64,000 nt of DNA from Candidatus Schneewindia gallinarum (GTDB lineage Bacteria; Bacillota; Clostridia; Oscillospirales; Ruminococcaceae), in NCBI GenBank assembly GCA_904420175.1, contig CAJFUF010000013.1, positions 1-64,000 on the forward strand, in the 5' to 3' direction. Both the position numbers and the translations under genes were made by a program. The notes beneath the pieces are model-generated. The model did not search any database and had not been told where the DNA came from. It worked only from the letters and a program-made list of their open reading frames with translations. Below, piece after piece: positions 1 to 35,096 of this stretch (position 1 is its first letter; the number at the start of each line of letters is the position of its first letter).

Positions 1-2
1 AT

Positions 3-485
3 GACAGGCTTGTAATCGGGAAATTTTGCTCCATCGCCTGTGGGGCAAAGTTTTTGTTCACCAGCGCCAACCATACACAAGCATCCCTGTCCAGCTATCC
101 GTTCCCCATCTTTTTTGAGGAGTGGGGCTTGGATGTCCAGAACATAACGAGGGCCTGGGACAACAAAGGCGACATAATCATCGGCAATGACGTATGGATT
201 GGATATGAGGCTGTCATCCTGTCCGGCGTCACCATTGGCGATGGAGCAGTTATTGGCACACGCGCCGTTGTGACAAAGGATGTTCCTTCTTACACCATTG
301 TCGGTGGCGTTCCCGCGAAGCCGATCCGCAAACGCTTTTCGGAGGATACCATCTCGACCCTGCTGAAAATCAAGTGGTGGGACTGGCCCGAAGAAAGAAT
401 AAAACAGCATATCTCAGACATTCAGGCCGGGAAAATTGATTGTTTACAGCCGCTTAACGAAAGGAAGCGGCATGATACCCTATGA
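3..485 (+). CDS. CatB/Vat-type O-acetyltransferase, 5' end cut by window edge
   Basis: Hexapeptide-repeat acetyltransferase of the xenobiotic (Vat streptogramin / CatB chloramphenicol) type, which moves acetyl from acetyl-CoA to a hydroxyl acceptor. The frame is open from base 3 and reads [17 protein letters not shown], then the family SANH motif with its catalytic His, a YPF segment, the left-handed helix repeats ([18 protein letters not shown]) and [13 protein letters not shown]. The beginning lies outside the window, so the TTG at 54 is not the start. Drug resistance is possible, but many members of this family have other substrates. Confidence 0.85.
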
Positions 486-862
486 AAATTCCACAGGGTG
501 CCGCCGGCGTCGCCCCTTCCCCCCTGTTTGACTTTCCCTTTGTGGCGCACCTGTAAAAAGGAAAGCGCCGTGGCGGCACCGGCTGAGGCCCAGCGGAAGC
601 AGGGGCTACCGCAAAAGGAGTTTAGCGGCAGGCAGCAAGATAAAATCAGAATCAGAAGCGGCACCGGGTTTCTTCATCCTTTCAGATGTCTGAGGGAAGG
701 GTGCAGCGAATGCGAGCTTAAACTATCATAATAAAATAAATTTATTGTTATTTAAAGTGTAATTGTTTATAAAAATAAAAGATTTTATTCATGCATTATG
801 CGAATTGATGAAATTGGTAGAATCCTGTATGATAGGGGCAACTTAAAAGGGAGGTGCTCCGT
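486..862. other. 377-base intergenic stretch, AT-rich at its 3' end
   Basis: No convincing gene. The first 230 bases are GC-rich and carry only short low-complexity open frames. Bases 720-800 are very AT-rich and include the palindrome AATAAATTTATT. The promoter for the next gene lies at the end. The abrupt composition change suggests a junction between DNA of different origin. Confidence 0.5.
805..833 (+). promoter_or_regulatory. sigma-A promoter for the gene at 863
   Basis: TTGATG (805-810) and TATGAT (828-833) with a 17-base spacer. A ribosome site (GGGAGGTG, 849-856) follows before the ATG at 863. Confidence 0.6.
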
Positions 863-1303
863 ATGAATACCGTGATTCATTTCAACGACTTTGAATTGAT
901 TCTACCGCCCCCAAACAGACGAAGTGTCAGGGCGGTCAATGTCAACCAGAGCGGAAAGCTCACCGTCAACCTGTGCCTGTATGAAAGCCTGTCGTGCAAG
1001 GAAGTCCAGTTTTACATCAGTAAAGATAAGCGGACGCTGTTGCTCTGTGAGCAGGGCACACCAAACTACCGGGAAGCAAGTGCCTCTTACCGGTTGCCCA
1101 AAAACGGCACAATTCACAACTGTGAATTTACAAGGGACTATATACGCAAGGGGCTGACTTTACCCGTGCGGTACGAAATGTACTGGAATGAGCAGGAACA
1201 GCTCTGGATGGGGATCTGCACAGGCTTTCCGCCCCTCCCGTCGGTAAAGGAGCTTGCACAGAAACTGCCGCCGAAGCTCGGAAAGGCCAGGGCCGTAATA
1301 TGA
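863..1303 (+). CDS. conserved hypothetical protein, 146 aa
   Basis: Not recognised. A soluble protein of 146 residues starting MNTVIHFNDFEL, with no signal peptide or membrane segment and a basic C-terminus. The ATG at 863 is preferred over the GTG at 854 because the GTG overlaps the ribosome site GGGAGGTG. It overlaps the next gene by four bases (ATGA at 1300-1303), so the two are probably translationally coupled. With the acetyltransferase it may belong to an accessory element mostly outside the window. Function unknown. Confidence 0.6.
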   Translation: MNTVIHFNDFELILPPPNRRSVRAVNVNQSGKLTVNLCLYESLSCKEVQFYISKDKRTLLLCEQGTPNYREASASYRLPKNGTIHNCEFTRDYIRKGLTLPVRYEMYWNEQEQLWMGICTGFPPLPSVKELAQKLPPKLGKARAVI

Positions 1304-1977
1304 GAAGCTCGGCTTATCTGGAAGAACTGACCCTTCAGTCGGACAAATTACTGGAAGAACTGTGCAGACGGTACGGACGCGGATTGGATCGAGACGACGC
1401 ACGGATGGAGGCTGCCGCAGAACTGATTTGTGCCGGAAAAGACTACAAAAAAGTACAGGGCTGCTATGAATTTTGGGATTACGTCACAGGACGCGTTGTG
1501 CAGCGGCTGGAGCTGAAAAGGAAGGAAGCCAACAGAATCCGAAAGGTTGAAAGCGGATATTCACTGGATCAGCCGGTTGCAGAGGGTGAGGAAGCGGCCC
1601 GTGATGTTTTTTTTCCAATACAGGGAGATTTTGTAAACGGCGTTGTGTTGACGGACTATGTAAACGGGCTTCCCGACATGGATCGGACCGTTGCGTGGGA
1701 CTATATAAACGGCTACACCGATCAGGAAATTTTGGGCTGGCGCCGCCTGTCCTTTCAGGATTTGGAGGGGATAAAAGGGCGGCTGCGTTTAAAATGGAAC
1801 AGTATCTTTCCATCTGACCGATCAGAAGGAAGCCCTCAGCTGGGGCTGCGCCCGCCCCCGGACGGCAGAATGGGCAAAAAGAAAATCCGCCCCCCTCCGC
1901 CCATTAAAAAGGGGAAAAAGGATGGCGGAGGGAACAAAAAAGGCCGCTTCCCATCGGAAGCGGCCTTTTTTAGGTGA
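1300..1977 (+). CDS. sigma-70-region-4-like protein; reading frame runs through a terminator
   Basis: 225 residues. The first about 170 look like a real protein. Residues around 125-165 (VNGLPDMDRTVAWDYINGYTDQEI) resemble sigma-70 region 4 or a related helix-turn-helix, so a divergent sigma-like DNA-binding protein is the best guess. The last 50 residues are low complexity (RPPPP, KKGKK) and are encoded by two hairpins, the second an intrinsic terminator at 1936-1971. The natural stop has probably been lost by mutation or frameshift near 1820. Overlaps the previous gene by four bases. Confidence 0.5.
   Translation: MRSSAYLEELTLQSDKLLEELCRRYGRGLDRDDARMEAAAELICAGKDYKKVQGCYEFWDYVTGRVVQRLELKRKEANRIRKVESGYSLDQPVAEGEEAARDVFFPIQGDFVNGVVLTDYVNGLPDMDRTVAWDYINGYTDQEILGWRRLSFQDLEGIKGRLRLKWNSIFPSDRSEGSPQLGLRPPPDGRMGKKKIRPPPPIKKGKKDGGGNKKGRFPSEAAFFR
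1936..1971. terminator. bidirectional intrinsic terminator inside the end of the upstream frame
   Basis: Ten-base stem GGCCGCTTCC (1942-1951) / GGAAGCGGCC (1956-1965) with loop CATC, flanked by six A and six T, so it works for both converging genes. Another hairpin (CCCTCCGCC / GGCGGAGGG, about 1893-1932) lies just before it. Confidence 0.85.
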
Positions 1978-1979
1978 TA

Positions 1980-3002
1980 TTACCGGGCGGAAATAACTTT
2001 TTCAATATTCTCTGCCAGTGTGTTGAAATCATAGCCGTTTACCTGCTCCACCAGACGTACGTCATCCTGTTTCAACGCCTCCGGATGCAGTGCGCCCACA
2101 ATGGCGCCGGCCATGGAACCCATCATGTCGGTATCGTTTCCGAGGTTGACGGCCATCCGCAGTGTCGCAGCCGCATCGGCATCACAGGCTGCAAGGCAGC
2201 CGAACACCGCTGGGACGGATTCATTCGCGGCATTGCTGCAGCCCACCTTTTCCTCGATTTCCGTCAGGGCTTTCTCAAAATCCCCCTGGGCGGCCAGGCC
2301 GATTTCAATGGCCAGTTCCATTCTGCGGCTGACAAGAGCTGTGGCTGCGGGCTGGATGCGGTAGCTGTCCGCAATCTCGAAGCCGCGCCGTGCGCCATGC
2401 ACGCCTGCTGCCAGCACAGAGTGACAGGTCGCCCCGTCTTTCAGCGCTTCGCTGACGGCGGCGGCAATTGCTCCAGCACCCGAAAGGGACACCATATTCC
2501 CATAGATGTTTTTGAAAACCTTTATCGTCGCCTCCACTGCGGCCTCTACATCCCCGGGGAAGAACACCGCGGACGCAAAAGCGCGGGCGGCCGCCTCGTT
2601 GGAAATTTTATGGTGGTCATAAGTCAGGAAGGGATAGCGATAGCCGGTGTCGATTCCTGCAAGATGACAGTAGGATTCTCTGGTGATGCCGCCTGCAAAC
2701 TCCAAATTGGCAGGATCTGCGCCCCACTGCAGCAGGACTTCCCCTGCGTCGTACTCACTCATGGCGCCGTTGTTTTCAAGGAAGCGAGCAATCAGCTGCA
2801 GTGCATAGGGCACCGCATCGGCAGAGTGTCCCGCAGGGAATTTACCCTTCATCTTGGTGGAGGTGGGGGCGGGAAGCAGCGACTCAATCAGGCTCCCGTA
2901 TTCCTCCCTGATCATGTCGGTGGTCCAGGTGGTGACAGCCGCGCCCATGGCCTCGCCCACTGCGGCACCGGCGATACAGCCGTAAAGATTGTCTTTTCTC
3001 AT
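1980..3002 (-). CDS. ADP-ribosylglycohydrolase family protein (copy A)
   Basis: DraG/ARH-type enzyme, 340 aa, the family that removes ADP-ribose from proteins or small molecules with two Mg ions. It begins MRKDNLYGCIAGAAVGEAMG, the usual N-terminal helix, and carries the C-terminal metal motif NLGNDTDMMGSMAGAI (a variant of GGDTD). The N-terminal metal site is poorly conserved compared with copy B, so substrate or activity may differ. Its start is three bases after the stop of copy B, so the two are one operon. Confidence 0.85.
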   Translation of the reverse strand: MRKDNLYGCIAGAAVGEAMGAAVTTWTTDMIREEYGSLIESLLPAPTSTKMKGKFPAGHSADAVPYALQLIARFLENNGAMSEYDAGEVLLQWGADPANLEFAGGITRESYCHLAGIDTGYRYPFLTYDHHKISNEAAARAFASAVFFPGDVEAAVEATIKVFKNIYGNMVSLSGAGAIAAAVSEALKDGATCHSVLAAGVHGARRGFEIADSYRIQPAATALVSRRMELAIEIGLAAQGDFEKALTEIEEKVGCSNAANESVPAVFGCLAACDADAAATLRMAVNLGNDTDMMGSMAGAIVGALHPEALKQDDVRLVEQVNGYDFNTLAENIEKVISAR

Positions 3003-3005
3003 CCG

Positions 3006-4058
3006 TTATGCCCTCCTCTCATCAGCCAGCTTGGCCAGGTCCTTTGCCATTCCGCACAGGTCAAAGTGCTTGGTCAGCGCATTGTCACAGCAGTTCATTT
3101 TTTCAATCAGGATGCGGTCCTCCTCCCGGAAGGAGCCGGGCCCTTCAAACGCACCGTAAATTGCGCCGCCGATGGAGGCGATGGAATCGGTATCCCCGCC
3201 TGCATTGACACCCAAAATAACCATGTCCATGGCGCTGTCCGCGGCCATGAACAGGCCGAACAGGGCGGCGATGGACTCGGTGCAGGTTAAAGAGGTGCCG
3301 ATGAGGGAGGCCAGTTCATACAGCAGCCTGTCGGTATCATGCCCGTAACGAAGGCCCAGTTCCACCGCCATCTCAATGCGGGGGCCCATTTTGGCGCCTG
3401 CAACAGGATAGGCGGTGTCCTTAATCCGGCGGCAGGATTCCTCCACGCCGTACAGTGCCGCCTTAACAATCTCCTCTTTGGTTGCGCCGTCCACCATGGC
3501 CCTTGCGGTGGCACAGGACACGGCAGCCGCCGCTGAAATGGCCACAGAGGTGGGATGGGTGGGCATGCACATGGCAATCGTTTCGGTAATGGCACGGTCA
3601 AAATTCCCTGGGTTCATAAAGCCCATGGGGGAGGCTTTCATGGCGGTGCCGTTGGTAATCAGGTGGTTGCGGGTTTTCAGATGGGCATACTTGTCCACCG
3701 GGATTTCACCCTTCATGCGCTGAATCTCTACCTTGGTGTTGGGCCCGGAATGGTCGATAAAGTACTGGTCCAGCTCCGACCAGTCGATAAGCACCTGCTC
3801 AAAGGCCTTCTGATCCATCTGCCCTTTATTTTTTATGTAGGACAGGCCGATGAGATACACAAGGCTGAAATCGTCTGTGACCATACCACGCAGATTGCGG
3901 CGGGCAAAGCAGTCGCAAACCGGATCCAGCAGTGTGGTGACGAAACCGCCGTGCCGCTTGACGATGGCCTCGGTGGTCTTGGTCTCCGTGACGGCGCCCA
4001 TGGCGTCGCCGACGGCTGCGCCGAGAAGTGCCCCAAGGATTCGTTCCTCTGTTGTCAA
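3006..4058 (-). CDS. ADP-ribosylglycohydrolase family protein (copy B)
   Basis: 350 aa. N-terminal RILGALLGAAVGDAMGAVTE and C-terminal NAGGDTDSIASIGGAIYGAFEG give complete DraG/ARH metal-binding motifs. The TTG at 4058 is chosen over the TTG at 4067 because AAGGAG ends directly against the upstream TTG and is nine bases from this one. Transcribed first, then copy A. The tandem paralogues may act on different linkages, or on nucleosides or free ADP-ribose given the nucleoside hydrolase nearby. Confidence 0.88.
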   Translation of the reverse strand: MTTEERILGALLGAAVGDAMGAVTETKTTEAIVKRHGGFVTTLLDPVCDCFARRNLRGMVTDDFSLVYLIGLSYIKNKGQMDQKAFEQVLIDWSELDQYFIDHSGPNTKVEIQRMKGEIPVDKYAHLKTRNHLITNGTAMKASPMGFMNPGNFDRAITETIAMCMPTHPTSVAISAAAAVSCATARAMVDGATKEEIVKAALYGVEESCRRIKDTAYPVAGAKMGPRIEMAVELGLRYGHDTDRLLYELASLIGTSLTCTESIAALFGLFMAADSAMDMVILGVNAGGDTDSIASIGGAIYGAFEGPGSFREEDRILIEKMNCCDNALTKHFDLCGMAKDLAKLADERRA

Positions 4059-4254
4059 GATAATCAACTCCTTACCGAAAAAAATTGGCGGACCTCTTGA
4101 AAAATCCGTAAATATAGTATATCATAATAATACGTTATAGTAAATATGGTTTTTTAAAAATTTGGTTGGTTTTTCAAACCCGGCAGACGCATTTTTGAAT
4201 AAAACGCAGGGATTTTACCGCGCCGCGGGGTGCGGGGAAAAGGAGTGCTGTGCA

Positions 4255-5430
4255 ATGAACAACCCGAAACCGGTGCCCAGGGCGCCTGTGAAGCTGGAGA
4301 AGTTCCGTGATTTGACCCTGGCGCGCTGCGCAGGACAGTTGCTGGCGTTTGCCTGCGATTCCTCCGGCTCTGTGGGCGGCCTGCCGGAGGATGAGGTGCA
4401 AACCGGCGCTTATCAGTCCGGCATTTTCATGGTAAAGGTGCCGCTGATGGAGATCCTTGCCAGCGGGGCGGTGCCGGTGGCTGTCTATGCCGACTTCTGC
4501 TATGGCCCAAGCGCCTATAATGACGAGGTGCTGCACGGAATCAGGGATGAGCTTGCCAGCGTTGGCGTGGATCCCTCCATCATTATAAAGACATATGGAA
4601 CGGCGAAGGAACCGCAGTGCTCTGCCACTGGGGCCACAGTGGTGGGGCAGGCCGGGCCCGGGGGCCTGCAGGTCGCTGTCTCCCGGCCGGGGGACAGGGT
4701 GTACACCATCGGCAGGCCGCATGACAAGGACCGGGCTGAAGGGCAGCTGAACAACGCGGCCATCAAAAAGCTGCGCGACTGCCCCTTTATCCATGAGATT
4801 CTTCCCTGTGGTTCCCATGGGTTCCGGTATGAGGCGAACACGCTGGCCCGATCCTGCGGGCTGCAGTTTGAGGAAAAGGGGGACTACCCCCTTCTTGCAC
4901 AGGCGGAGGCCACTTGCGGGGCGTGTGCCTGTGCGGTGTTTACGCTGGCGCAGGAGGATGAGAAGTGGCTGCAGAACCTGGATCTGCCCTTTTTCCTGTG
5001 CTGTATCGGCACCCTGAAGCAGGGAAAGCCATCAAGTCCGCCCGCGCCGCCGGAACGGTTTTCACCGGTTCTGCTGCAGCCGGATGGCAGCCTGCGCTTC
5101 CGGCAGGGCGGCAGCATTGTCTCGGGGGCGGCGCTCAGCTACGGCGTGGGAATCCGCCCGGGGGACACGCGCCCCTGCCCCACACAGGCCCTGTCGCTGC
5201 GCCTGCTGGACGCAGTCCGGGCCGCGCAGCCGAAGGCTGTCCCGTTCCTGCTAATCAACAATCTGAACCTGCCCATGCGGACGCAGGGACAGGAAACGAT
5301 TGAAGTTTTGCGCCCCGCGCTCCGGCAGATGGGCGTGGATCCGGACACGGGCTTTACCGGCAGCACGGAGGACAACCATCCCAGCGCATGGACCGGGATG
5401 GCCCTGCGGCTGTTTGGCTGGAAAGAATAA
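4255..5430 (+). CDS. AIR synthase / PurM-like ATP-binding protein
   Basis: 391 aa, related to the PurM / SelD / ThiL superfamily of ATP-dependent kinases and ligases: an N-terminal Asp and Gly-rich segment (FACDSSGSVGG), a cysteine-containing middle (EATCGACACAVFTLA) and a C-terminal PurM-like half. It starts at ATG 4255 with AAAAGGAG (4237-4244) upstream. Diverges from the ADP-ribosylglycohydrolase operon, so they may share control. Some proteins of this kind are alpha-ribazole kinases (CblS), but no cobalamin gene is present here to support that. Substrate unknown. Confidence 0.7.
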   Translation: MNNPKPVPRAPVKLEKFRDLTLARCAGQLLAFACDSSGSVGGLPEDEVQTGAYQSGIFMVKVPLMEILASGAVPVAVYADFCYGPSAYNDEVLHGIRDELASVGVDPSIIIKTYGTAKEPQCSATGATVVGQAGPGGLQVAVSRPGDRVYTIGRPHDKDRAEGQLNNAAIKKLRDCPFIHEILPCGSHGFRYEANTLARSCGLQFEEKGDYPLLAQAEATCGACACAVFTLAQEDEKWLQNLDLPFFLCCIGTLKQGKPSSPPAPPERFSPVLLQPDGSLRFRQGGSIVSGAALSYGVGIRPGDTRPCPTQALSLRLLDAVRAAQPKAVPFLLINNLNLPMRTQGQETIEVLRPALRQMGVDPDTGFTGSTEDNHPSAWTGMALRLFGWKE

Positions 5431-5462
5431 AAGATGACAGGCGAATGCCTGTCATCTTTTTC
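5431..5462. terminator. bidirectional intrinsic terminator
   Basis: AAGATGACAGGC / GCCTGTCATCTT stem with loop GAAT, followed by T in one direction and A in the other. It separates converging genes. Confidence 0.9.
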
Positions 5463-6409
5463 TATGCATCTTTAAGGATTTTCATCAGTCGCTGTTTATA
5501 CAGCTGGTGATTCAGCTTTTTGACGACAACGGCATTGTCGGCGGGGATAGTCTGGGGGACTGCGAGGAAATCATTCCGGTCGTAAAAAATGACCTGGCCG
5601 TAAGTCGCCTCCTCCCTGGTGCAGCAGAGGGCATACACACTGACACTCTCCAGCACAACGTCCTCCCAAAGTGCGACGGCAACAGCCACGGCGTCAGGAA
5701 GATCCACCATGTATTCCCCTGTGCGGCGCAGGTTATAGCTCAGCAGCGTGCTGTTGCACTCGGCGGCAAACCGGCACAGCGGGTTTCCTGCTGACAGGGT
5801 ATCCAGTTCCTCCTTATACAGTGCGGCGGGACCAATGCACTGGTCAAAACCGACGATCGTCATCGGGATCCCGCTGTGAAGCAATATGGAAAAGGCATCC
5901 GCGTCGACATATACATTGAAGGTCGCAACAGGGGTGGTGTTTCCGCGCCCAAACCCGGCGGTGCCCATGATATAGAGATGCTTGACCTGCCGCATCGTCT
6001 GCCGGTCTTTCAGGATGGCGAGGGCGATGTTTGTAACGGGCCCCAGTGTGACAAGTTCAATTTCACCGGGATGTGCGCGCACGGTCTCCAAAATATAGTC
6101 TGCCGCATGTCCCGCCGCCGGCGTGGTGGTGGGATGAATCAGCCCCCTGTCGCCCATGCCGTCGTCCCCGTGCACACGTACTGCCGTGGCCAGCGGGCGC
6201 AGTAGAGGACAGTCCGCCCCCTCGTAGACGGGGATGTTTCTGCCGCACAGTTCCAATGTGGCAAGCGCATTTTTTGTGGCAAGAGGCAACGGGACGTTCC
6301 CACAGACGGTGGTAACACCAAGGATATCCACAGAGCCCTCCAGAACTGCCAGCATTAAAGCAACGGCGTCGTCGCTGCCCGTGTCGGTATCGATAATCCA
6401 TTTTCTCAT
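5462..6409 (-). CDS. nucleoside hydrolase (IunH family)
   Basis: Hydrolyses the N-glycosidic bond of ribonucleosides to base and ribose, in the cytoplasm. 315 aa, normal length. The calcium-binding Asp cluster DTDTGSDDAV is at residues 7-16 and the later ligand region reads FNVYVDADA. Ribosome site GGGAG lies ten bases before the ATG. Base preference cannot be read. Divergent from a Crp/Fnr regulator across an 89-base gap with a palindromic operator, so it is a likely target of that regulator. Confidence 0.92.
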   Translation of the reverse strand: MRKWIIDTDTGSDDAVALMLAVLEGSVDILGVTTVCGNVPLPLATKNALATLELCGRNIPVYEGADCPLLRPLATAVRVHGDDGMGDRGLIHPTTTPAAGHAADYILETVRAHPGEIELVTLGPVTNIALAILKDRQTMRQVKHLYIMGTAGFGRGNTTPVATFNVYVDADAFSILLHSGIPMTIVGFDQCIGPAALYKEELDTLSAGNPLCRFAAECNSTLLSYNLRRTGEYMVDLPDAVAVAVALWEDVVLESVSVYALCCTREEATYGQVIFYDRNDFLAVPQTIPADNAVVVKKLNHQLYKQRLMKILKDA

Positions 6410-6431
6410 TTTCTACACACTCCCTTTCTGT

Positions 6432-6484
6432 TTGTACTTTCGATAATAAATCTGGTATGATATGAAAAAAAGGTCAAATGACCT
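6432..6484 (+). promoter_or_regulatory. promoter with palindromic operator for the Crp/Fnr gene
   Basis: -35 TTGTAC (6432-6437), 18-base spacer, -10 TATGAT (6456-6461). Just downstream of the expected start of transcription is a perfect inverted repeat AGGTCA-AA-TGACCT (6471-6484). The placement fits repression of the regulator by its own product. It also lies within the promoter region of the divergent nucleoside hydrolase. Confidence 0.65.
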
Positions 6485-6498
6485 GAAATGAGGCTGCC

Positions 6499-7137
6499 AT
6501 GGAAAAATTTTTTGAGCACCTGCCGCCCGGGATATCTCACATCGAAAAACGGTATGAAAAAGGGCGGACCATTTTGGGCCCGGCGGAGAAGGGCGGCCAC
6601 CTGTACATCCTGAAGCGGGGCACCGCCTCTGTCTATAATCTGGGGTTGGAGGGGGAAGAACTGAAAATTTTTGACTATCGTCCCGGGGAATATTTTGGCG
6701 AGGTGGAATTGCTGTGCGGCCGCCGGTATCCCCTTCTGGTGAAGGCGAAAACGGCGTGTACCGTGTGGCTTGTCAGGGGGGAGGACTTTTTGCACTGGCT
6801 GCAGGAAAGCCCGGAGTTCTCCCTGTTTATAATGAAAAGCCTGTGTGAAAAACTTCTTTATAACTCCGACAGGCTTACGAGGATTTCGCTTCTGAGCATG
6901 AGGGAGCGGTTCTTACTGAGTATCTATACCTACGAACAGTCGGGCCGCCTTCCCTGCTTAAGTAAAACACAGCTGGCGGAGGATATCTGCGCCCCCATCC
7001 GCAGCCTGAACAGGCTGATTGCGGAAAACACGGCCCTTGTGCGCTATGAAAACAGGGCCTTTTCCGTTGTGGACAGGGAACGGCTGGCGTCGCTTTGCGC
7101 TGAAATTCAGGCTGTGCTGTGGCAACAAGCAGATTAA
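6499..7137 (+). CDS. Crp/Fnr family transcriptional regulator
   Basis: 212 aa. Residues about 10-110 form the cyclic-nucleotide-binding-type beta roll (YRPGEYFGEVELLCG). A dimer helix follows, then a C-terminal winged helix-turn-helix (LSKTQLAEDICAPIRSLNRLI). There is no N-terminal Cys cluster as in Fnr, so an iron-sulfur sensor is unlikely; the ligand is unknown. The ATG at 6499 has AATGAGG just upstream. Probably controls itself and the divergent nucleoside hydrolase. Confidence 0.88.
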   Translation: MEKFFEHLPPGISHIEKRYEKGRTILGPAEKGGHLYILKRGTASVYNLGLEGEELKIFDYRPGEYFGEVELLCGRRYPLLVKAKTACTVWLVRGEDFLHWLQESPEFSLFIMKSLCEKLLYNSDRLTRISLLSMRERFLLSIYTYEQSGRLPCLSKTQLAEDICAPIRSLNRLIAENTALVRYENRAFSVVDRERLASLCAEIQAVLWQQAD

Positions 7138-7275
7138 AGGGGGACCGGCTTTCCCCCCATAAAACACAGGCCCATCCTGCCGGACCGGCAGAAGGCTCTG
7201 CGGCTTTCCGGGGGCACCAGGGACCCTCTTTGGCATGATACGGATGGAAAGGACAGGAAAAGGAGGCGACAGCTT

Positions 7276-8025
7276 ATGCTGGCGTTTTTATCCCCGGCGA
7301 AAAACATGCGCCCGCCGCGGCAGGACGGCATTCCCCCCACAACCCCGGCCTTCCTGCCGCAGGTGCGGCAGCTGGCGGAACAGCTAAAAAGCCTCAGCGC
7401 GTGGCAGCTGGAGACCCTGCTGCACACAAGCCCGGAGCTTGCATTAAGGGCCTTTGTCCATTATCAGGAATTTGACACGGCCCATCCCGGCTGGCCTGCA
7501 CTGCTAAGCTACCGCGGCCTTGCGTACAGCGCCCTGTCCCCGGAGAGCTTTTCCGAAAAGGACCTGGCCTTTGCCCAGCAGCATGTGCGGATTTTATCCG
7601 CGCTGTACGGCGCGCTGCGCCCCCTGGACGGGATTCTGCCCCACCGGCTGGAGTTTCAGTGCGGTGTGCGGGTGGACGGGAAAAACCTGTATGCCTTTTG
7701 GGGCGACAGGCTGTACCGAAGCCTGTTTTCCGAGGGCGTGCCGGTGGTGAACCTTGCGTCCGCGGAGTATGCAAAGGCGGTTGTTCCGCACCTGCGGCCC
7801 GGCGACCGCCTGGTGACGTGCGAGTTTTTGCAGCCGGTGCGGGGGAAATTTGTGACAAGGCCCACCGAGGCGAAGCAGTGCCGGGGCGGGATGATCCGGT
7901 TTTTGTGTAAGAACCGGCTGAACCGGCCGGAGCAGCTGCAGGCGTTCGAGGGAAATGGCTACTGTTTCCGGGCGGATTTGTCCGATGAAACGCGCTACCG
8001 CTTTGTAAAGGAGGCAGGTAGATGA
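7276..8025 (+). CDS. yaaA: peroxide stress protein YaaA
   Basis: 249 aa, the YaaA (DUF328) family; E. coli YaaA limits free iron and DNA damage during peroxide stress. The signature N-terminus LAFLSPAKNM and the ALYGALRPLDGI and FWGDRLYRSL segments are present. Ribosome site AAAAGGAGG is before ATG 7276. Overlaps the next gene by four bases (ATGA). Confidence 0.93.
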   Translation: MLAFLSPAKNMRPPRQDGIPPTTPAFLPQVRQLAEQLKSLSAWQLETLLHTSPELALRAFVHYQEFDTAHPGWPALLSYRGLAYSALSPESFSEKDLAFAQQHVRILSALYGALRPLDGILPHRLEFQCGVRVDGKNLYAFWGDRLYRSLFSEGVPVVNLASAEYAKAVVPHLRPGDRLVTCEFLQPVRGKFVTRPTEAKQCRGGMIRFLCKNRLNRPEQLQAFEGNGYCFRADLSDETRYRFVKEAGR

Positions 8026-28526: not shown

Positions 28527-29324
28527 GTGACCAAATATATTAAAACGTTCATGCGGTACCGGTACCTGCTGATGAATTTTATCGAGCGGGACATTAAGGT
28601 CAAATACCGCCGGTCCGTGCTTGGGCTGCTGTGGAGCGTACTGAACCCGCTGCTGATGATGGCGGTTATTTCCACCGTGTTTTCTACAGTGATGCGAATC
28701 AGCGTTGCAAACTTTCATCTGTATTATTTAACTGCCGCCGTGGTGTACAATTTTATTTCCGAGGCGACCAACGGTGCGATGACCTCCGTGTTTACCTCCG
28801 GGGCCATTATGAAGAAGGTCTATATTCCAAAGTACATCTTCCCGCTGGAGAAGGTGCTGTTTTCCTTTGTCAACATGCTGTTTTCCCTTATTGCGGTTTT
28901 AATCGTGATTATCATCACCATGGTGGTGAATCCGGGCTCGGTCAGTTTTTCATGGACCATGCTGCTGTTCCCCATCCCGCTTATCATGGCGCTGATTTTT
29001 TCTTTCGGCCTCGGCCTGCTGCTTGCAGCAGCAACGGTTTTCTTTCGGGATATTATGCACTTGTATGGGGTTTTCCTTACCGCCTGGATGTATGCGACAC
29101 CGATTATTTGGGACATGGCAAGTATGCAGAACCCCTTGATTCTCACAATTATGAAATTCAACCCAATGTATTATTATGTAACCTTTTTCCGGGACGTAAT
29201 GATTTACAACCGGGTTCCCAGCATCCCTTTTATGCTGGCGGGGCTGGCCTGTGCCGTTGTGATGCTTCTAATCGGTCTGGCTGTGTTTAAGAAAAAACAG
29301 GACATGTTTGTCCTGTACATGTAG
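28527..29324 (+). CDS. polysaccharide ABC exporter, permease subunit (Wzm/TagG type)
   Basis: 265 aa ABC-2 type permease with six membrane helices. N-terminal RDIKVKYRRSVLGLLWSVLNPLLMMAVI is the family signature. With the next gene it should carry a lipid-linked glycan such as teichoic acid or a rhamnan across the membrane. GTG 28527 follows GAGGAGGA. Confidence 0.93.
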   Translation: MTKYIKTFMRYRYLLMNFIERDIKVKYRRSVLGLLWSVLNPLLMMAVISTVFSTVMRISVANFHLYYLTAAVVYNFISEATNGAMTSVFTSGAIMKKVYIPKYIFPLEKVLFSFVNMLFSLIAVLIVIIITMVVNPGSVSFSWTMLLFPIPLIMALIFSFGLGLLLAAATVFFRDIMHLYGVFLTAWMYATPIIWDMASMQNPLILTIMKFNPMYYYVTFFRDVMIYNRVPSIPFMLAGLACAVVMLLIGLAVFKKKQDMFVLYM

Positions 29325-29335
29325 GGGGGAGCAGT

Positions 29336-30079
29336 ATGGGCGACTATGCAGTAGAGGTCAACAATGTGACCATGCGGTTCAACCTTGCAACACAGAAGGT
29401 GGACAGCCTAAAGGAATATGTTATCAAGCTTTTTAAGAAGCAGCTGTTTTTTAAGGAGTTTCTGGCCGTTAACGACGTCTCCTTCAAGGTGAAAAAGGGG
29501 GAGGTGTTCGGGCTGATTGGCCTGAACGGCTCTGGGAAAAGTACCCTGTTAAAAATGATTGCAGGCGTCTATAAGCCGTCCAAGGGATCCATCCGGACAG
29601 AGGGGGTCATTGCCCCCATGATTGAACTGGGCGCCGGGTTTGATATGGAGCTGACGGCAAGGGAGAACATCTACCTGAACGGATCGGTTCTTGGTTTTTC
29701 CAAGCAGTTTATCAACAGTGTGTTCGACGAGATTGTAGAGTTTACGGAACTGGCACCGTTTCTCGATGTACCAATGAAGAACTATTCCTCCGGTATGGTG
29801 GCCCGGGTTGGTTTTGCCATTTCCACCGTTACAAAGCCGGATATCCTGATTGTGGATGAGATTCTGGCAGTGGGGGACTTTCTCTTTCAGCAGAAATGCG
29901 AGGCGCGGATTAACCAGCTGATGGAGCGGGGAACCACCGTCATCATTGTGTCGCACTCGATCGAGCAGATTGAGCGGTTGTGCGACCGGGTTGCATGGCT
30001 GGAAAAGGGTAAACTTAAAATGATTGGCGAATGCCAGGAAGTATGCGACATTTATAAAAACAGCGGGAGAACAGAGTGA
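29336..30079 (+). CDS. polysaccharide ABC exporter, ATPase subunit (Wzt/TagH type)
   Basis: 247 aa. An N-terminal extension (about 40 residues with VDSLKEYVIKLFKKQLFF) is typical of Wzt/TagH. Walker A GLNGSGKST, signature YSSGMVARVGFA and Walker B ILIVDEILAVGD follow. There is no C-terminal glycan-binding domain, so it belongs to the short class. Starts 12 bases after the permease. Confidence 0.94.
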   Translation: MGDYAVEVNNVTMRFNLATQKVDSLKEYVIKLFKKQLFFKEFLAVNDVSFKVKKGEVFGLIGLNGSGKSTLLKMIAGVYKPSKGSIRTEGVIAPMIELGAGFDMELTARENIYLNGSVLGFSKQFINSVFDEIVEFTELAPFLDVPMKNYSSGMVARVGFAISTVTKPDILIVDEILAVGDFLFQQKCEARINQLMERGTTVIIVSHSIEQIERLCDRVAWLEKGKLKMIGECQEVCDIYKNSGRTE

Positions 30080-30088
30080 GGAAACCAC

Positions 30089-31867
30089 ATGAAGGACAAA
30101 ATACTACGAGGATGGCGTTATTTTAAAAAAAATGGTTTTGTTAAAACCGTTAAAAGACTATTTTTAGGATTAAAAATAAAACTGTTTGGGCAGAAAAAAC
30201 AGCCAGAGCCTCAAGAATACCCTGTCGGACCGGATGAAGTAGAACTTCAGAGGCAACGGGAAACAGTATTCCCAGAACCACCTTTCATCAGTGTAGTAGT
30301 ACCACTTTATAATACAGAGTTATCCTATCTGGAAGAGATGGTAAACTCGGTGCGTGCACAGACATACTCCAGATGGGAACTTTGCCTGGCGGATGCTAGT
30401 GATTCGAATCATGCACAGGTAGGGGAATATTGCCTTTCCGTAGCATGCAAAGATTCCCGCATCCGATACCGGCACTTGGAAAAGAATCTGGGCATTTCCG
30501 GAAATAGCAACCAGGCTGCCGAAATGGCCAGAGGGGACTATATTGCCTTATTAGATCACGATGATACTTATACGCCGGATGCACTTTTTGAAATTGCACA
30601 GGCGGTTGTACAATTTCACCCGGATGTTATTTATACGGATGAAGATAAAATTTCTATAGAGGGGAAGCGGTACCATCCCTTCTATAAACCGGATTGGTCC
30701 CCGGATCTGCTATATTCACAGATGTATATTTGTCATCTTCTGGTTTTTACAAAGGAACTATTTTTTGCAGTCGGAGGATTTGATGAGAAGGCCTCCGGAA
30801 GCCAAGATTATGATTTAATGTTGCGCCTGTCGGAACAGACAAAACAAATTTATCATATTCCAAAGGTCCTGTACTCCTGGAGGGAGACACCGTCCTCCAC
30901 CTCCATTAACCCAAATTCAAAACCCTATGCTCATATGGCGGGCTTGAATGCGCTGGACGCCCACTTGAAAAGGAGGTATCAAGGGCGCGCCCATGCTGAA
31001 GAAACTGAGTATACTTATGTTTACAGGGCACGGTTTCACACACTGGAAAAGAATCCGAAAGTTTCTGTTATTATACCAACCAAGGATCATCCGGAACTTC
31101 TTCAAAACTGCGTGGAAAGTATTCTCCAAAAAACAAATTACCCGAATTATGAAATTTTGGTTTTGGACAATAATTCAGAAGAGGAAAAAACTTTCCAGCT
31201 GTTTAAAACATTGGCCCAGAACGAAAGGATCTCGGTTATTCCCGCGAAATTTGACTTTAACTGGTCAAAATTAAATAATTTTGGGATGCAGCATGCCACT
31301 GGAGACGTTTTTATATTTTTAAACAATGACACACAGATTATATCTCCGGATTGGATGACATTTTTGGCAGAAAATGCACTCAGGGAAGAGATTGGAGTCG
31401 TTGGGGCATTATTATTGTATGAAGACGGAACGATTCAGCATTCGGGTGTGGTTGTCGGCATGGGGGGATGGGCTGACCATGTGTATAAAGGCGAAAAACC
31501 AGTGCATTACGCCCCTGTTTTTATTTCTCCGGTTATTAACCGAAATGTCCTGGCAGTGACAGGCGCGTGCATGGCAATTTCACGCGCCACAATTAAAAAA
31601 ATTGGCCAGTTTAATGAAGACTTTATTATCTGTGGCAGCGATGTGGAGATTTGTCTTCGCGCTTATCATGCTGGGTTATATAACTTGCTTTGTGCAGATG
31701 CACGGTTGTACCATTTGGAGTCAAAAAGTAGAGATGCATATATACCAGAGATTGATTTTACCCTTTCAAAGAAGTTCTATGCTCCTTACAGAGAAGGGGA
31801 AGATCCTTTCTACAACCCCAATTTAGACAAATTTAGCTGTGTTCCGCGGGAAAGGAGTTTAAAATGA
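30089..31867 (+). CDS. bifunctional GT2 glycosyltransferase (rhamnan / cell wall glycan)
   Basis: 592 aa with two GT-A family 2 domains. The first (about 70-300) carries ISVVVPLYNTELSYLEEMVNSV, ALLDHDDTY and YTDEDKI; the second (about 325-560) carries VSVIIPTKDHPELLQNCVESI, FLNNDTQI and VTGACMAISR. Builds the glycan exported by the ABC pair, working on the cytoplasmic side. Base composition drops sharply from here, unlike the two ABC genes, which points to an exchanged cassette. Overlaps the next gene by four bases. Confidence 0.92.
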   Translation: MKDKILRGWRYFKKNGFVKTVKRLFLGLKIKLFGQKKQPEPQEYPVGPDEVELQRQRETVFPEPPFISVVVPLYNTELSYLEEMVNSVRAQTYSRWELCLADASDSNHAQVGEYCLSVACKDSRIRYRHLEKNLGISGNSNQAAEMARGDYIALLDHDDTYTPDALFEIAQAVVQFHPDVIYTDEDKISIEGKRYHPFYKPDWSPDLLYSQMYICHLLVFTKELFFAVGGFDEKASGSQDYDLMLRLSEQTKQIYHIPKVLYSWRETPSSTSINPNSKPYAHMAGLNALDAHLKRRYQGRAHAEETEYTYVYRARFHTLEKNPKVSVIIPTKDHPELLQNCVESILQKTNYPNYEILVLDNNSEEEKTFQLFKTLAQNERISVIPAKFDFNWSKLNNFGMQHATGDVFIFLNNDTQIISPDWMTFLAENALREEIGVVGALLLYEDGTIQHSGVVVGMGGWADHVYKGEKPVHYAPVFISPVINRNVLAVTGACMAISRATIKKIGQFNEDFIICGSDVEICLRAYHAGLYNLLCADARLYHLESKSRDAYIPEIDFTLSKKFYAPYREGEDPFYNPNLDKFSCVPRERSLK

Positions 31868-33135
31868 ACAAGAATGGGAAGGTAGCTCGGGTTTTAAAAA
31901 AATCTGAGTTCTTAAAACGGGCATACCGCGCTGCGAAAATTATGAGCGGCGGGATAAAAGTAACAAACACTGCAATTGAGGAGATTATGCCCCTCAGACC
32001 AAGAAAAGCGGAATCCCAAAAACTTAGACTTAATCTTTTGGTTCCTTCCATAAAAAAAGAGCATGTTTTTGGCGGAATCTCAACTGCATTAAAATTTTTT
32101 AATAACTTGGCGGACGAACTGGGTGCAGAAAGAAGGCTTCTTGTCCTTGACGCGAATGTCTCAAAGAAGGACATAGAGAATGGATTTTCCGATTATGTAC
32201 TGGTTCCCTGCTCACAAAATGTCTGTTGTGATAAGCAGATTGTAGATTTAAAAGATAGAAAGAATGAGACATTCCCTGTTACTGGAAAAGATTTGTTTAT
32301 TGCCACCGGTTGGTGGACTGCTTATACAATTGCACCGGTCATAAAATGGCAGGCAATGACGTATCAACAGAAAATTAAAAACTTAATCTACTTGATTCAG
32401 GACTATGAGCCTAATTTCTATCCTTGGTCCACACGGTACATGCTTGCGGAAGGCACCTATAAAATGGATATTCCCACAACGGCCGTTTTTAATTCTTCCC
32501 AACTGAGAGACTATTTTAAGGCCAATGGGTATGTGTTTGATAAAGAATATTGCTTTGATCCTGTTTTAAACGAAGTTTTGAAGCGGTATTTGAATACACA
32601 TCCTGCAGAAAGTGTGCAGAGGAAAAAGCAGATACTTGTTTACGGAAGGCCTTCCGTCTCAAGAAATGCATTCGAGTTATTGATAGATGCCTTAATGCGG
32701 TGGAGTGAAGAGTATCCTGAAGCGAGGGAATGGAAAGTCTATTCTGCTGGTGAGGCATTCGATAATATCGAACTAAAAAACAAAGTCGTTTTAGAGGTGT
32801 TGGGAAAGCTTTCTTTAGAGCAATATGCAAAATTTATGACAGAAACTTATGCTGGAATTTCGCTCATGGTCTCTCCCCATCCCAGCTACCCCCCCCTGGA
32901 AATGTCTACATTTGGCATTAAAACGATAACCAATACTTATGCAAATAAAGATTTAAAAAGCTTTAATGAAAGCATTGTTTCGTTAAAGTATTGCACGCCT
33001 GAGATAATTTCGAATGAATTAACGAAGATATGTATTGGTTATCAAAAATTTTCTGACTACAGTATTAACAGAGAATATCTGCGAGGACATGGCTCCTTTT
33101 TTGAAGTGATTCAAAAGTTAGCGGAAGAGGTGTAG
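31864..33135 (+). CDS. WsaF-like glycosyltransferase
   Basis: 423 aa. NLLVPSIKKEHVFGGISTALKFF at the start of the catalytic part, then ATGWWTAYTI, LIQDYEPNFYPWSTRY and a nucleotide-binding half with ILVYGRPSVSRNAFE and LMVSPHPSYPPLEMSTFG. These match the GT4-like C-terminal domains of rhamnosyltransferases such as WsaF. AT-rich codon use. Starts inside the stop of the preceding gene. Confidence 0.85.
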   Translation: MNKNGKVARVLKKSEFLKRAYRAAKIMSGGIKVTNTAIEEIMPLRPRKAESQKLRLNLLVPSIKKEHVFGGISTALKFFNNLADELGAERRLLVLDANVSKKDIENGFSDYVLVPCSQNVCCDKQIVDLKDRKNETFPVTGKDLFIATGWWTAYTIAPVIKWQAMTYQQKIKNLIYLIQDYEPNFYPWSTRYMLAEGTYKMDIPTTAVFNSSQLRDYFKANGYVFDKEYCFDPVLNEVLKRYLNTHPAESVQRKKQILVYGRPSVSRNAFELLIDALMRWSEEYPEAREWKVYSAGEAFDNIELKNKVVLEVLGKLSLEQYAKFMTETYAGISLMVSPHPSYPPLEMSTFGIKTITNTYANKDLKSFNESIVSLKYCTPEIISNELTKICIGYQKFSDYSINREYLRGHGSFFEVIQKLAEEV

Positions 33136-33143
33136 TTCCTTAG

Positions 33144-35096
33144 ATGCGTAAGAGACAGAAAATAACTTTGTTAATTATAATAGGAATAATAATTATTTTT
33201 TGCATAGGATTTTATTTGCTATGGGTTCGTCCCGCATCATTTCAAGACTATACCGAGTCCAACAGTGTCCAAACTGAAGCAAGTACTTTAACCTATCTTT
33301 CCAATAAAAAGCTTGTACAGTCTTTTGAGGTGGATAATGACATTAAAAGTTTTAGTGTGTCCTTTTTCTTCCCTGGGGCTGATACAGGAGAACTAATAAC
33401 AGTACAATTGCAGGACCAAAATGGAAATATTTATTTTCAAGAAACCTATACGTTTAATGAGTTAAAAGAGAACTCTAAATTTATACTGGAAGAGGAGATA
33501 ACAGGAAAACAGGGGGAAATTTTTGAGATAGTTATAAAAGGGAGTCCATCCAATACTACTGATAGTATAGGCGTATTAACTTCCGTACACAGCGAATACA
33601 GTGAAGGCGAACTATTTGTTGATGGGAAAAGCACCCAGCAGGACATTGCTTTTTCCTTGACAGGTGGTAACTGTGCATTTTTAAATTCTGTTTATATAAT
33701 TTTTGTGCTTTTTATCTTATTCTCAGTAATTCTTATATATTATTTTGTGCTTGTAAAGAAAGCGACAATAGAAAAATGTTTCGCTGTAATTGCTTTGGTT
33801 TGTGGAATTATTTACCTGTTTTTAGGTACGCCTTATTCTGGCTATGATGAGGCCGCTCATATGGATACAGCATATAGATTTTCCGACTTAATGATGGGAA
33901 ATGGATTTGAGACAGAAACGGGCGGGTACTTAAGAAGATCCGGAGATACGATGGAGGGATTTACCCAAGGACAGGCTGGTTTAAGCCAGCTTAAGGTTAT
34001 TCATGATGAGTTGTTTTCTTTTTCCTCAGATTCTAGACTAATAGAAGTGAAGGGGAGAAATGTTAGCCAAAATCCGTTTTTTTATGGTCCAGCTGCACTA
34101 GGAATAACGATAGCGCGTTTATTTAATTTGGGAAGAGTTCCAATGATTTATTTGGCCAGACTTCTCAATCTATTATATTTCATTGGGATGGCATATTTTT
34201 CGATTAAACGAGCGCCTTTGGGAAAGATGATATTTGCAGCTGTCGGGTTACTTCCGATGACCTTGTCCCTAGCTGCTTCTTTTTCATATGATGCGTTTAT
34301 GATGGGAATTACCTTTTTATGTATTTCTTATCTTTTAGCGCTTATCTACGAGAAAGAAAAAATAAAAACAAAGGATTTGTTTTTATTTATAATATTTGCA
34401 GCTTTAATGGCTCCAGCAAAAGTGATTTATATTTTAATATTAGGGCTTATTTTTTTGATACCAAGAGAGCGTTTTTCAAATTCTTCAAAATACTATCGTA
34501 CGATAGTAATGATTCTTGGCTTTTCGATTTTATCGCTTGTTATTTTTAATTTTTCGAGTGTTGTCAACATTTTTTTGCCGAAAGTCAGTAGATATCCTGG
34601 AACAGAAGGACTAAGCTATTATTCTCTAGGCTATGCATTAACTCATATTCCATATATGATTAGTATTGCATACAATACTTTGATCCATAAGCTGGATCAC
34701 TATTTAACGTATATGATAGGGGGAGTATATACACAGCCTCTAAGTATTTGGTTATGCAGCGCTTTTGGAGTGACTTTACTGTTAAGTGCATTAAAAACAG
34801 AAAAAAAACCACTTCTCATTTCAAAAAAACATAAAATTTGTTATGCTGTAGTTTTTTTAGGTGTATTTGTAGCTGCTCATCTTGCAATGCTAACTTCGTT
34901 TACTATAATGGGTTCGCCAGTAGTTGAAGGCGTACAAGGGCGATACTTATTACCGGTTCTTCCGTTAATATTATTATTAGGAAGAAGTGGGATTGTTGTT
35001 TTGAAGAAAAATATAGATAAGTCATTACTTTTTATAGCATTTTCTCTTCATGGGGTAGCAGCAATTCAAATATTTCAAAGAATTATTACTAGATAA
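33144..35096 (+). CDS. DUF2142 multi-pass membrane protein
   Basis: 650 aa. First membrane helix at about 8-28, an extracellular domain at about 30-185, then some ten helices. The GTPYSGYDEAAHMDTAYRFS segment is characteristic of DUF2142 proteins, which resemble GT-C glycosyltransferases acting outside on lipid-linked sugars. It likely decorates the exported glycan. The most AT-rich gene in the window. Confidence 0.82.
   Translation: MRKRQKITLLIIIGIIIIFCIGFYLLWVRPASFQDYTESNSVQTEASTLTYLSNKKLVQSFEVDNDIKSFSVSFFFPGADTGELITVQLQDQNGNIYFQETYTFNELKENSKFILEEEITGKQGEIFEIVIKGSPSNTTDSIGVLTSVHSEYSEGELFVDGKSTQQDIAFSLTGGNCAFLNSVYIIFVLFILFSVILIYYFVLVKKATIEKCFAVIALVCGIIYLFLGTPYSGYDEAAHMDTAYRFSDLMMGNGFETETGGYLRRSGDTMEGFTQGQAGLSQLKVIHDELFSFSSDSRLIEVKGRNVSQNPFFYGPAALGITIARLFNLGRVPMIYLARLLNLLYFIGMAYFSIKRAPLGKMIFAAVGLLPMTLSLAASFSYDAFMMGITFLCISYLLALIYEKEKIKTKDLFLFIIFAALMAPAKVIYILILGLIFLIPRERFSNSSKYYRTIVMILGFSILSLVIFNFSSVVNIFLPKVSRYPGTEGLSYYSLGYALTHIPYMISIAYNTLIHKLDHYLTYMIGGVYTQPLSIWLCSAFGVTLLLSALKTEKKPLLISKKHKICYAVVFLGVFVAAHLAMLTSFTIMGSPVVEGVQGRYLLPVLPLILLLGRSGIVVLKKNIDKSLLFIAFSLHGVAAIQIFQRIITR

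Follow-up and report, generated by a model that had tools for sequence, protein, structure and literature searches.

The window analysed here spans 64,000 nucleotides from base 1 of a 92.6 kb contig (C13) in the genome of Candidatus Schneewindia gallinarum (G000; 1.77 Mb, 86.65% complete). Near its left end, at 1980–5430, two ADP-ribosylglycohydrolase (ADPRGH) paralogues, copies A and B, lie beside CblS2, a divergent protein of the PurM superfamily related to the α-ribazole kinase CblS. We propose, with a probability of roughly 45%, that α-ribosides are phosphorylated by a CblS-type kinase and hydrolyzed by an ADPRGH, with A, B, and CblS2 forming the unit in the window. A wider version, which we regard as possible although rather doubtful, is that the phylum has an α-nucleoside catabolic pathway made up of import by energy-coupling factor (ECF) or ATP-binding cassette (ABC) transporters, a CblS-type kinase from cobamide salvage, and an ADPRGH acting as an α-riboside (5′-phosphate) hydrolase. 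In the lineage of the window, this pathway would have been rebuilt with a fused, split-site CblS pseudo-dimer and an ADPRGH enzyme–pseudoenzyme pair.

A previous sequence-only reading had placed four genes at 1980–6409, including two ADPRGH paralogues in one operon. All four open reading frames are confirmed, with matches to PF03747 for A and B, which are 3 bases apart on the same strand, and to PF01156 for the fourth gene, a nucleoside hydrolase described below. Copy A (340 aa; 1980–3002, minus strand) matches PF03747 at 2.5e-29 (103.3 bits), and copy B (353 aa, TTG start; 3006–4067, minus strand) at 2.4e-42 (146 bits); both exceed the gathering cut-off of 26.2 bits. The gene for CblS2 (391 aa, ATG start; 4255–5430, plus strand) is preceded by AAGGAG at 4240–4245.

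CblS2 itself has no Pfam match at 1e-3. In its wider family, all 24 proteins scanned show AIRS (PF00586; limit E of 1, best 3.6e-9), which places this family in the PurM superfamily. Relatives of the kinase were found in 94 of 398 genomes of the phylum, including the window's own; in the other 93, the match falls only within the first 270 residues, and the matching frames are mostly about 250–300 aa long. For 94 such loci, flanks of about 7 kb were taken in both directions (shorter at contig ends), and these stretches contain a CblT-like ECF S component in 86 cases and CobS in 30. In addition, a tblastn search with the kinase identified (27% identity, 2e-10) a plasmid gene of L. plantarum MF1298 that is flanked by the gene of an ECF S component (cblT) and by cobS; at that place, the MF1298 genome paper describes a CblT-CblS-CobS-CobC operon. 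Since the family keeps the company of CblT and CobS and matches this operon, it is assigned to CblS, the α-ribazole kinase. The CblS profile scores 168.6 bits against 4252–5430, covering residues 14–249 and model positions 8–247 of 253. Hence, the "PurM-like" kinase or ligase of the sequence-only reading is indeed a member of the PurM superfamily, and both the profile and tblastn identify it as a CblS relative. Six plasmid records match the kinase, all at less than 60% identity; of two annotations viewed, one is a cobamide operon and the other is unannotated. Against the PDB, the kinase sequence alone had no match better than E 0.46, and the CblS profile matched ThiL, an unrelated histidine kinase, and PurM at E 0.07–0.13. 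PurM, ThiL, and SelD proper were rejected as identities for CblS2 because its relatives are CblS proteins.

The association with ADPRGHs extends beyond the window. An ADPRGH is present in 8 of the 94 CblS loci, where 0.53 would be expected (Poisson P = 1e-7), and linkage by chance was rejected; the expectation comes from per-genome PF03747 matches at E ≤ 0.001, which include fragments and some matches below the cut-off and thereby raise it, and from rounded genome sizes. The eight loci belong to seven genomes of four families, and a count of families only gives a crude P of 0.002. Six of the eight carry GntR, CblT, CblS, EcfA, EcfT, and ADPRGH genes, all on one strand, the GntR gene of one (L124) being cut by the contig end; Pfam names were checked for the genes of L104 among these six. 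The linked locus of G171 reads BMP, ABC, permease, permease, nucleoside hydrolase, nucleoside hydrolase, CblS, and ADPRGH. That on contig C45 of G182, read partly by eye in the direction of transcription, consists of ADPRGH, PfkB, BMP, ABC, permease, permease, CblS, an IF-2B-family protein, and PsuG. The IF-2B-family protein between CblS and PsuG (L042, 7292–8359) is presumably of the methylthioribose-1-phosphate or ribose-1,5-bisphosphate isomerase type. At L109 and L111 (genomes G140 and G333), a PsuG-family gene lies in one stretch with CblS and CobS genes. The eight linked CblS proteins fall in one clade (support 100/96), together with those of G163, G264, and G289.

As cobamide loci, the linked ones are atypical. 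None of the eight has a B12 riboswitch, versus 22 of 26 unlinked loci examined out of 86 available (Fisher 2.7e-5). Likewise, CobS is encoded in two of the seven linked genomes (G171 and G315), versus 77 of 80 unlinked ones (Fisher 3e-5), where one of the 77 positives is a weak fragment (G128). Three further unlinked genomes, whose CblS proteins belong to the linked clade but whose contigs end before the downstream gene would be visible, bring the total to 78 of 83, CobS being present in G163 and without a match in G264 and G289; G344, G272, and G414 stand outside this count. CobT occurs in the same two linked genomes, G171 and G315, among the seven, a count with no matched control set.

The arrangement of A, B, and the kinase recurs in Neobittarella massiliensis (locus L031, genome G816), where a genome-contig scan found the one full-length relative of the kinase. 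The identities between the two loci are 66% for A, 77.6% for B, and 57% for the kinase. No match to the kinase was obtained in 60 relatives, nor any full-length match outside its own genome in the phylum sample. When A was searched in 396 genomes of the family, its own included, one other orthologue was found (67% identical), and its coordinates and sequence fit the Neobittarella trio; the rest are paralogues at 28–37% identity. The trio is therefore rare, and it is linked in both known cases. Conservation of the neighborhood had been suggested as a check, with scattered, unlinked homologues as the adverse outcome; the only other genome found with orthologues of the kinase and A has the trio, and such scattering was not seen for it. 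Both genomes also contain less closely related ADPRGH paralogues at scattered positions.

CblS2 and its Neobittarella orthologue have about 135 extra C-terminal residues. This part of CblS2 (5071–5427, plus strand, left bound approximate) contains a second, partial CblS A domain, recognized by the CblS profile over a stretch of about 5236–5421. It scores 26.3–28.9 bits in the window and 36.5–39.7 bits in Neobittarella, whereas the best of 2000 shuffled controls reached 3.8 bits. In the N-terminal copy, 33 of the 48 positions that are near-invariant in CblS are unchanged (32 of 48 in Neobittarella). Homology to CblS runs over the whole length of that family, and yet the S-T-E-x-N motif is absent from the CblS-homologous A domain: in both orthologues, S-T-E-N (model positions 109–111 and 113) is gone from the N copy and present in the C copy. 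Too little of the remaining model is covered by the alignment of the C copy for it to contain the N-terminal motifs. In the PurM superfamily, enzyme sites form between the A domains of a dimer. By analogy, we infer that CblS2 may be a single-chain pseudo-dimer with one composite site, to which the N copy would contribute the RD/ACDSxG half and the C copy the GSTEDN half. Large PurL (FGAR amidotransferase) is an internally duplicated member of the same superfamily, similar to CblS2 in that PurM-type domains are repeated along a single chain and their sites are unequal; CblS2 differs in combining a CblS-type protein with one partial A domain in about 390 aa, and its composite site is a putative one.

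The two ADPRGHs differ sharply in their active sites. In ARH3, the critical residues described in the literature are E41, T76, D77, D78, D314, D316, and T317, and the D77A, D78A, D314A, and D316A substitutions impair activity; a conserved TH motif is also used by ADPRGHs. Copy B retains the scored catalytic residues, with E at the E41 position, T-D-D, T-H, and D-D-S, where S at the T317 position corresponds to Ser305 of human ARH1. In copy A, the positions of E41, T76, D77, D78, the TH motif, D314, D316, and T317 are occupied by T, A, D, A, IY, D, D, and M, respectively, and its Neobittarella orthologue reads G-D-A, I-Y, and D-D-M at the metal ligands and the TH motif. Overall, A is altered at 10 of 16 positions conserved in the other copies, N- and C-terminal alike, and the same number is altered in the Neobittarella orthologue. 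Among 28 distinct ADPRGHs of the loci compared, metal-ligand losses beyond a T/S exchange occur only in the two A orthologues; one other protein has Y at the E41 position, and one truncated sequence is unreadable there.

Nevertheless, copy A is a maintained protein: comparison with its Neobittarella orthologue gives nonsynonymous and synonymous divergences of dN 0.28 and dS 1.89, i.e., a dN/dS of about 0.15, from which purifying selection is deduced, with dS near saturation. An AlphaFold2 (AF2) model built from five sequences shows a full ADPRGH fold, with a mean predicted local distance difference test (pLDDT) score of 88.5 and a predicted template modeling (pTM) score of 0.91. Its closest fold matches are 1t5j (Z 36.0), DraG (2woc, Z 34.5), and mouse ARH3 (2qty, Z 33.9). 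Judged from its residues, A is probably a catalytically degenerate pseudoenzyme. The sequence-only reading had noted a weakened N-terminal metal site in A; the weakening is real but was understated, being neither slight nor limited to the N-terminal end. The division of labor it suggested between A and B is supported by context; the site of B is intact, and A looks catalytically dead.

Pairs of this kind recur in the two trio genomes, which have 11 (G000, 1.77 Mb) and 13 (G816, 3.2 Mb) PF03747 matches, versus 0–6 in 80 CblS genomes. Of these 24 matches, 19 were scored, one of them only partly readable, and five were not recovered by the profile. Two further copies have broken metal sites, and the neighboring copy is in each case intact at these ligands: the second ADPRGH on contig C9 of G000 (T-G-N, D-S-A) and the first on contig C9 of G816 (S-D-F, D-P-T). 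Both tandem pairs are accompanied by a PfkB kinase (7903–11813 of L162 and 6962–9980 of L166, respectively), to which the cluster in G000 adds a GntR-UTRA regulator. In the ADPRGH pair on contig C35 of G000, both copies are intact. The recurrence of an intact–degenerate tandem pair suggests a partner role for the degenerate copy.

The proposed route can be outlined as follows. α-Ribazole, the known substrate of the CblS family, is an α-N-riboside. CblS2 would phosphorylate the 5′-OH of an α-riboside, which might be α-ribazole-like, α-nicotinamide riboside-like, or a breakdown product of an α-ADP-ribosyl conjugate. B would then cleave the α-glycosidic bond with its two-metal site to give ribose 5-phosphate and the base, and A, as a dead paralogue, might bind the ligand or act as a partner of B. 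Kinase and hydrolase would have the α-ribosyl group in common and carry out two steps, from riboside to riboside 5′-phosphate and on to ribose 5-phosphate plus base; phosphorylation first is favored because CblS acts on a nucleoside. The substrate, the order of steps, and the role of A are, like the composite site, conjectural, whereas the homologies, the motif losses, the presence of the trio in two genera, and, for other families of the phylum, the linkage of CblS to ADPRGHs outside cobamide gene surroundings are shown. Use of ribosides agrees with the wider setting, in which PfkB kinases stand by ADPRGHs and contig C1 of G000 carries, on one strand, a row of six nucleoside hydrolases, a CRP-type regulator, and a 498-aa ADPRGH (1173–8982 of L163, i.e., of G000:C1:5000–22000). 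The idea that the ADPRGHs act on small ribosides together with the PurM-like kinase, raised by the sequence-only reading, gains support from context, namely the identity of the kinase as CblS and the proximity of ADPRGHs to CblS, nucleoside transporters, nucleoside hydrolases, and PfkB.

The PfkB kinases also lend themselves to another explanation, in which B frees ribose from a nucleoside-like conjugate, CblS2 phosphorylates ribose or a ribosyl product in place of PfkB, and nucleoside hydrolases take ordinary β-nucleosides in parallel. Indeed, PfkB adjoins an ADPRGH on contig C35 of G000 and on five contigs of G816 (C8, C9, C13, C14, and C16), is one gene away on contig C9 of G000, and neighbors an ADPRGH in G753. 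A comparable kinase is YegV of Escherichia coli, which we take to be of the PfkB type. The yegTUV genes and the regulator YegW combine a nucleoside symporter, an ADPRGH (YegU), a sugar kinase (YegV), and a GntR protein, according to PMC10819704. On the other hand, the CblS substrate given in the published work is the nucleoside α-ribazole, not ribose, and one linked cluster contains a PsuG-family gene. The PsuG family acts on nucleoside 5′-phosphates. We regard a route through free ribose as unlikely.

A and B might instead reverse the ADP-ribosylation of a host or phage protein, as in DraT–DraG or ADP-ribosyltransferase–ARH immunity pairs, with the kinase unrelated. In fold and family, they belong with DraG, ARH3, and such immunity proteins, and a survey of NAD/ADP-ribose systems argues that ADPRGH domains prefer macromolecular conjugates. 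However, Pfam revealed no ADP-ribosyltransferase among the neighbors scanned in the two trio genomes (11 window proteins and seven L031 proteins), the trio is conserved with its kinase, and PADLOC gave no match at E 0.01 for A, B, the kinase, the nucleoside hydrolase, or the CRP-type regulator. The earlier remark that no transferase is visible holds for these neighbors; genome-wide, only DraT (PF07357) was sought, with no match in the five genomes searched and no signal in any of 14 controls. ARH1, ARH3, and DraG share the fold of A and the two-metal residues and TH motif of B, whereas the trio differs from them in its genomic company, which is riboside metabolism, and in a copy A without the motifs. 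Protein de-ADP-ribosylation is judged improbable. Least probable is that CblS2 is an α-ribazole kinase feeding B12 assembly, with the ADPRGHs incidental or trimming lower-ligand ribosides: the CblS homology, the CobS gene of Neobittarella, and the B12 riboswitches elsewhere in both trio genomes favor it, but neither CobS nor CobT was matched in G000, which speaks against a cobamide role, the window and L031 have no match to CblT (present in 86 of 94 CblS loci) or CobS and no B12 riboswitch, and S-T-E-N is gone from the CblS-homologous part.

Several observations weigh against α-riboside hydrolysis by a CblS-type kinase and an ADPRGH. The independent linkage events are few, since five of the eight linked loci come from one family (f79). 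CblS2 lies on a long branch (2.33) outside the clade of linked CblS proteins, and a joint grouping of the two is neither shown nor rejected by the approximately unbiased test (p 0.449; 65 of 97 rows). The E41 position is S, Q, or Y in seven of the eight linked ADPRGHs versus E in B, so that the substrates of B and of the linked ADPRGHs may differ. No match to CblT, EcfT, BMP, or a nucleoside ABC permease was found in the window or L031, and the trio thus lacks the import part of the comparison operons. G163 falls inside the linked clade and yet bears CobS, Neobittarella also has CobS, and the missing CobS and CobT of G000 could be a miss because that genome is 86.65% complete. The AF2 model of CblS2, built from the window and L031 sequences only, is poor (pLDDT 41). 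Finally, the survey cited above for a preference for macromolecular conjugates, which also allows a wider range, points the other way.

Each of the families involved is known. CblS was reportedly characterized as an α-ribazole kinase by Gray and Escalante-Semerena in 2010, within a CblT/CblS salvage route of Listeria innocua and Lactobacillus. CblS2 resembles it in its profile match and in the near-invariant positions of its N copy, and differs in that it has an extra half-domain, carries S-T-E-N only there, has no CblT, CobS, or riboswitch beside it, and is paired with ADPRGHs. The E. coli yegTUV system shares with the trio an ADPRGH and a small-molecule kinase, but has a putative sugar kinase rather than a PurM-superfamily protein, a single ADPRGH, and its own symporter and GntR regulator; YegW/GgaR, its repressor, is reported in PMC10819704 to sense ADP-glucose, which does not point to α-ribosides. 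Searches of the window for PfkB, GntR, BMP, and a nucleoside ABC permease gave no match; among transporters, they covered the named types only. The background on CblS, ARH enzymes, and ADPRGHs was drawn from PMC6722938, PMC5064896, PMC6461909, PMC9503650, PMC9738213, PMC8141533, and PMC10819704. The open-licence PubMed Central literature searched held nothing linking CblS or α-ribazole with an ADPRGH, and nothing on an ADPRGH with a pseudoenzyme; a precedent for the CblS–ADPRGH linkage, the split-site CblS fusion, or a conserved dead ADPRGH partner did not appear there.

The space between B and CblS2 contains two overlapping, divergent promoter-like sites. The σA-type site for CblS2 (TTGAAA-17-TATCAT; 4097–4125, plus strand) belongs to a block that also precedes the kinase gene of L031, and the site for B and A (TTTACT-17-TATACT with TG; 4116–4144, minus strand) is a consensus match only. 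Three such sites were found in 1900–6700, where 2.1 are expected from shuffles. A terminator-like hairpin with a 14-pair stem (5429–5460, minus strand; nine terminator-like sites found versus 5.2 expected) separates CblS2 from the nucleoside hydrolase (315 aa; 5462–6409, minus strand; PF01156 1.5e-76, 258.4 bits), which has the DTDxGxDD motif as IIDTDTGSDDA at its N-terminus. This enzyme had been counted as part of the neighborhood, but its place as a conserved member is not supported: the hairpin lies between, and the trio of Neobittarella has another nucleoside hydrolase near it, only 33% identical. It was thus rejected as a conserved pathway member and is treated as a neighbor. Divergent from it lies a CRP/FNR-type regulator (6499–7137, plus strand; PF00027 1.6e-16). 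In NCBIfam, A and the kinase were without a match, and neither B nor the nucleoside hydrolase reached the cut-off of any model. Phage sequences had no megablast match to 1–8000 of the window, and viral contigs searched by tblastn yielded no passing relatives of the kinase, A, or canonical CblS. Elsewhere in the window, a short Vat/CatB-like hexapeptide acetyltransferase frame (143 aa; 54–485) scores under the curated cut-offs of the resistance families. A stretch of lower G+C content at 28527–35096 (0.37–0.50 versus about 0.6 in its neighbors) holds an ABC exporter pair and glycosyltransferase-like genes and, read by eye, is probably a surface-glycan locus.

The linkage of certain ADPRGHs to kinases of a family known to act on an α-N-riboside leads to the hypothesis that some of them may be α-ribosidases. 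This hypothesis fits the α-stereospecificity published for ARH1 and ARH3. If it is true, α-ribosides would have a fate other than B12 synthesis; under the wider pathway outlined at the start, many bacterial ADPRGHs annotated for protein de-ADP-ribosylation would be α-ribosidases. PF03747 is widespread: a match over the cut-off is present in 54 of 80 genomes that carry CblS, and the trio genomes have 11 and 13 matches. CblS2, in turn, would be a compact and clear example of how a symmetric kinase dimer can become a single asymmetric chain.

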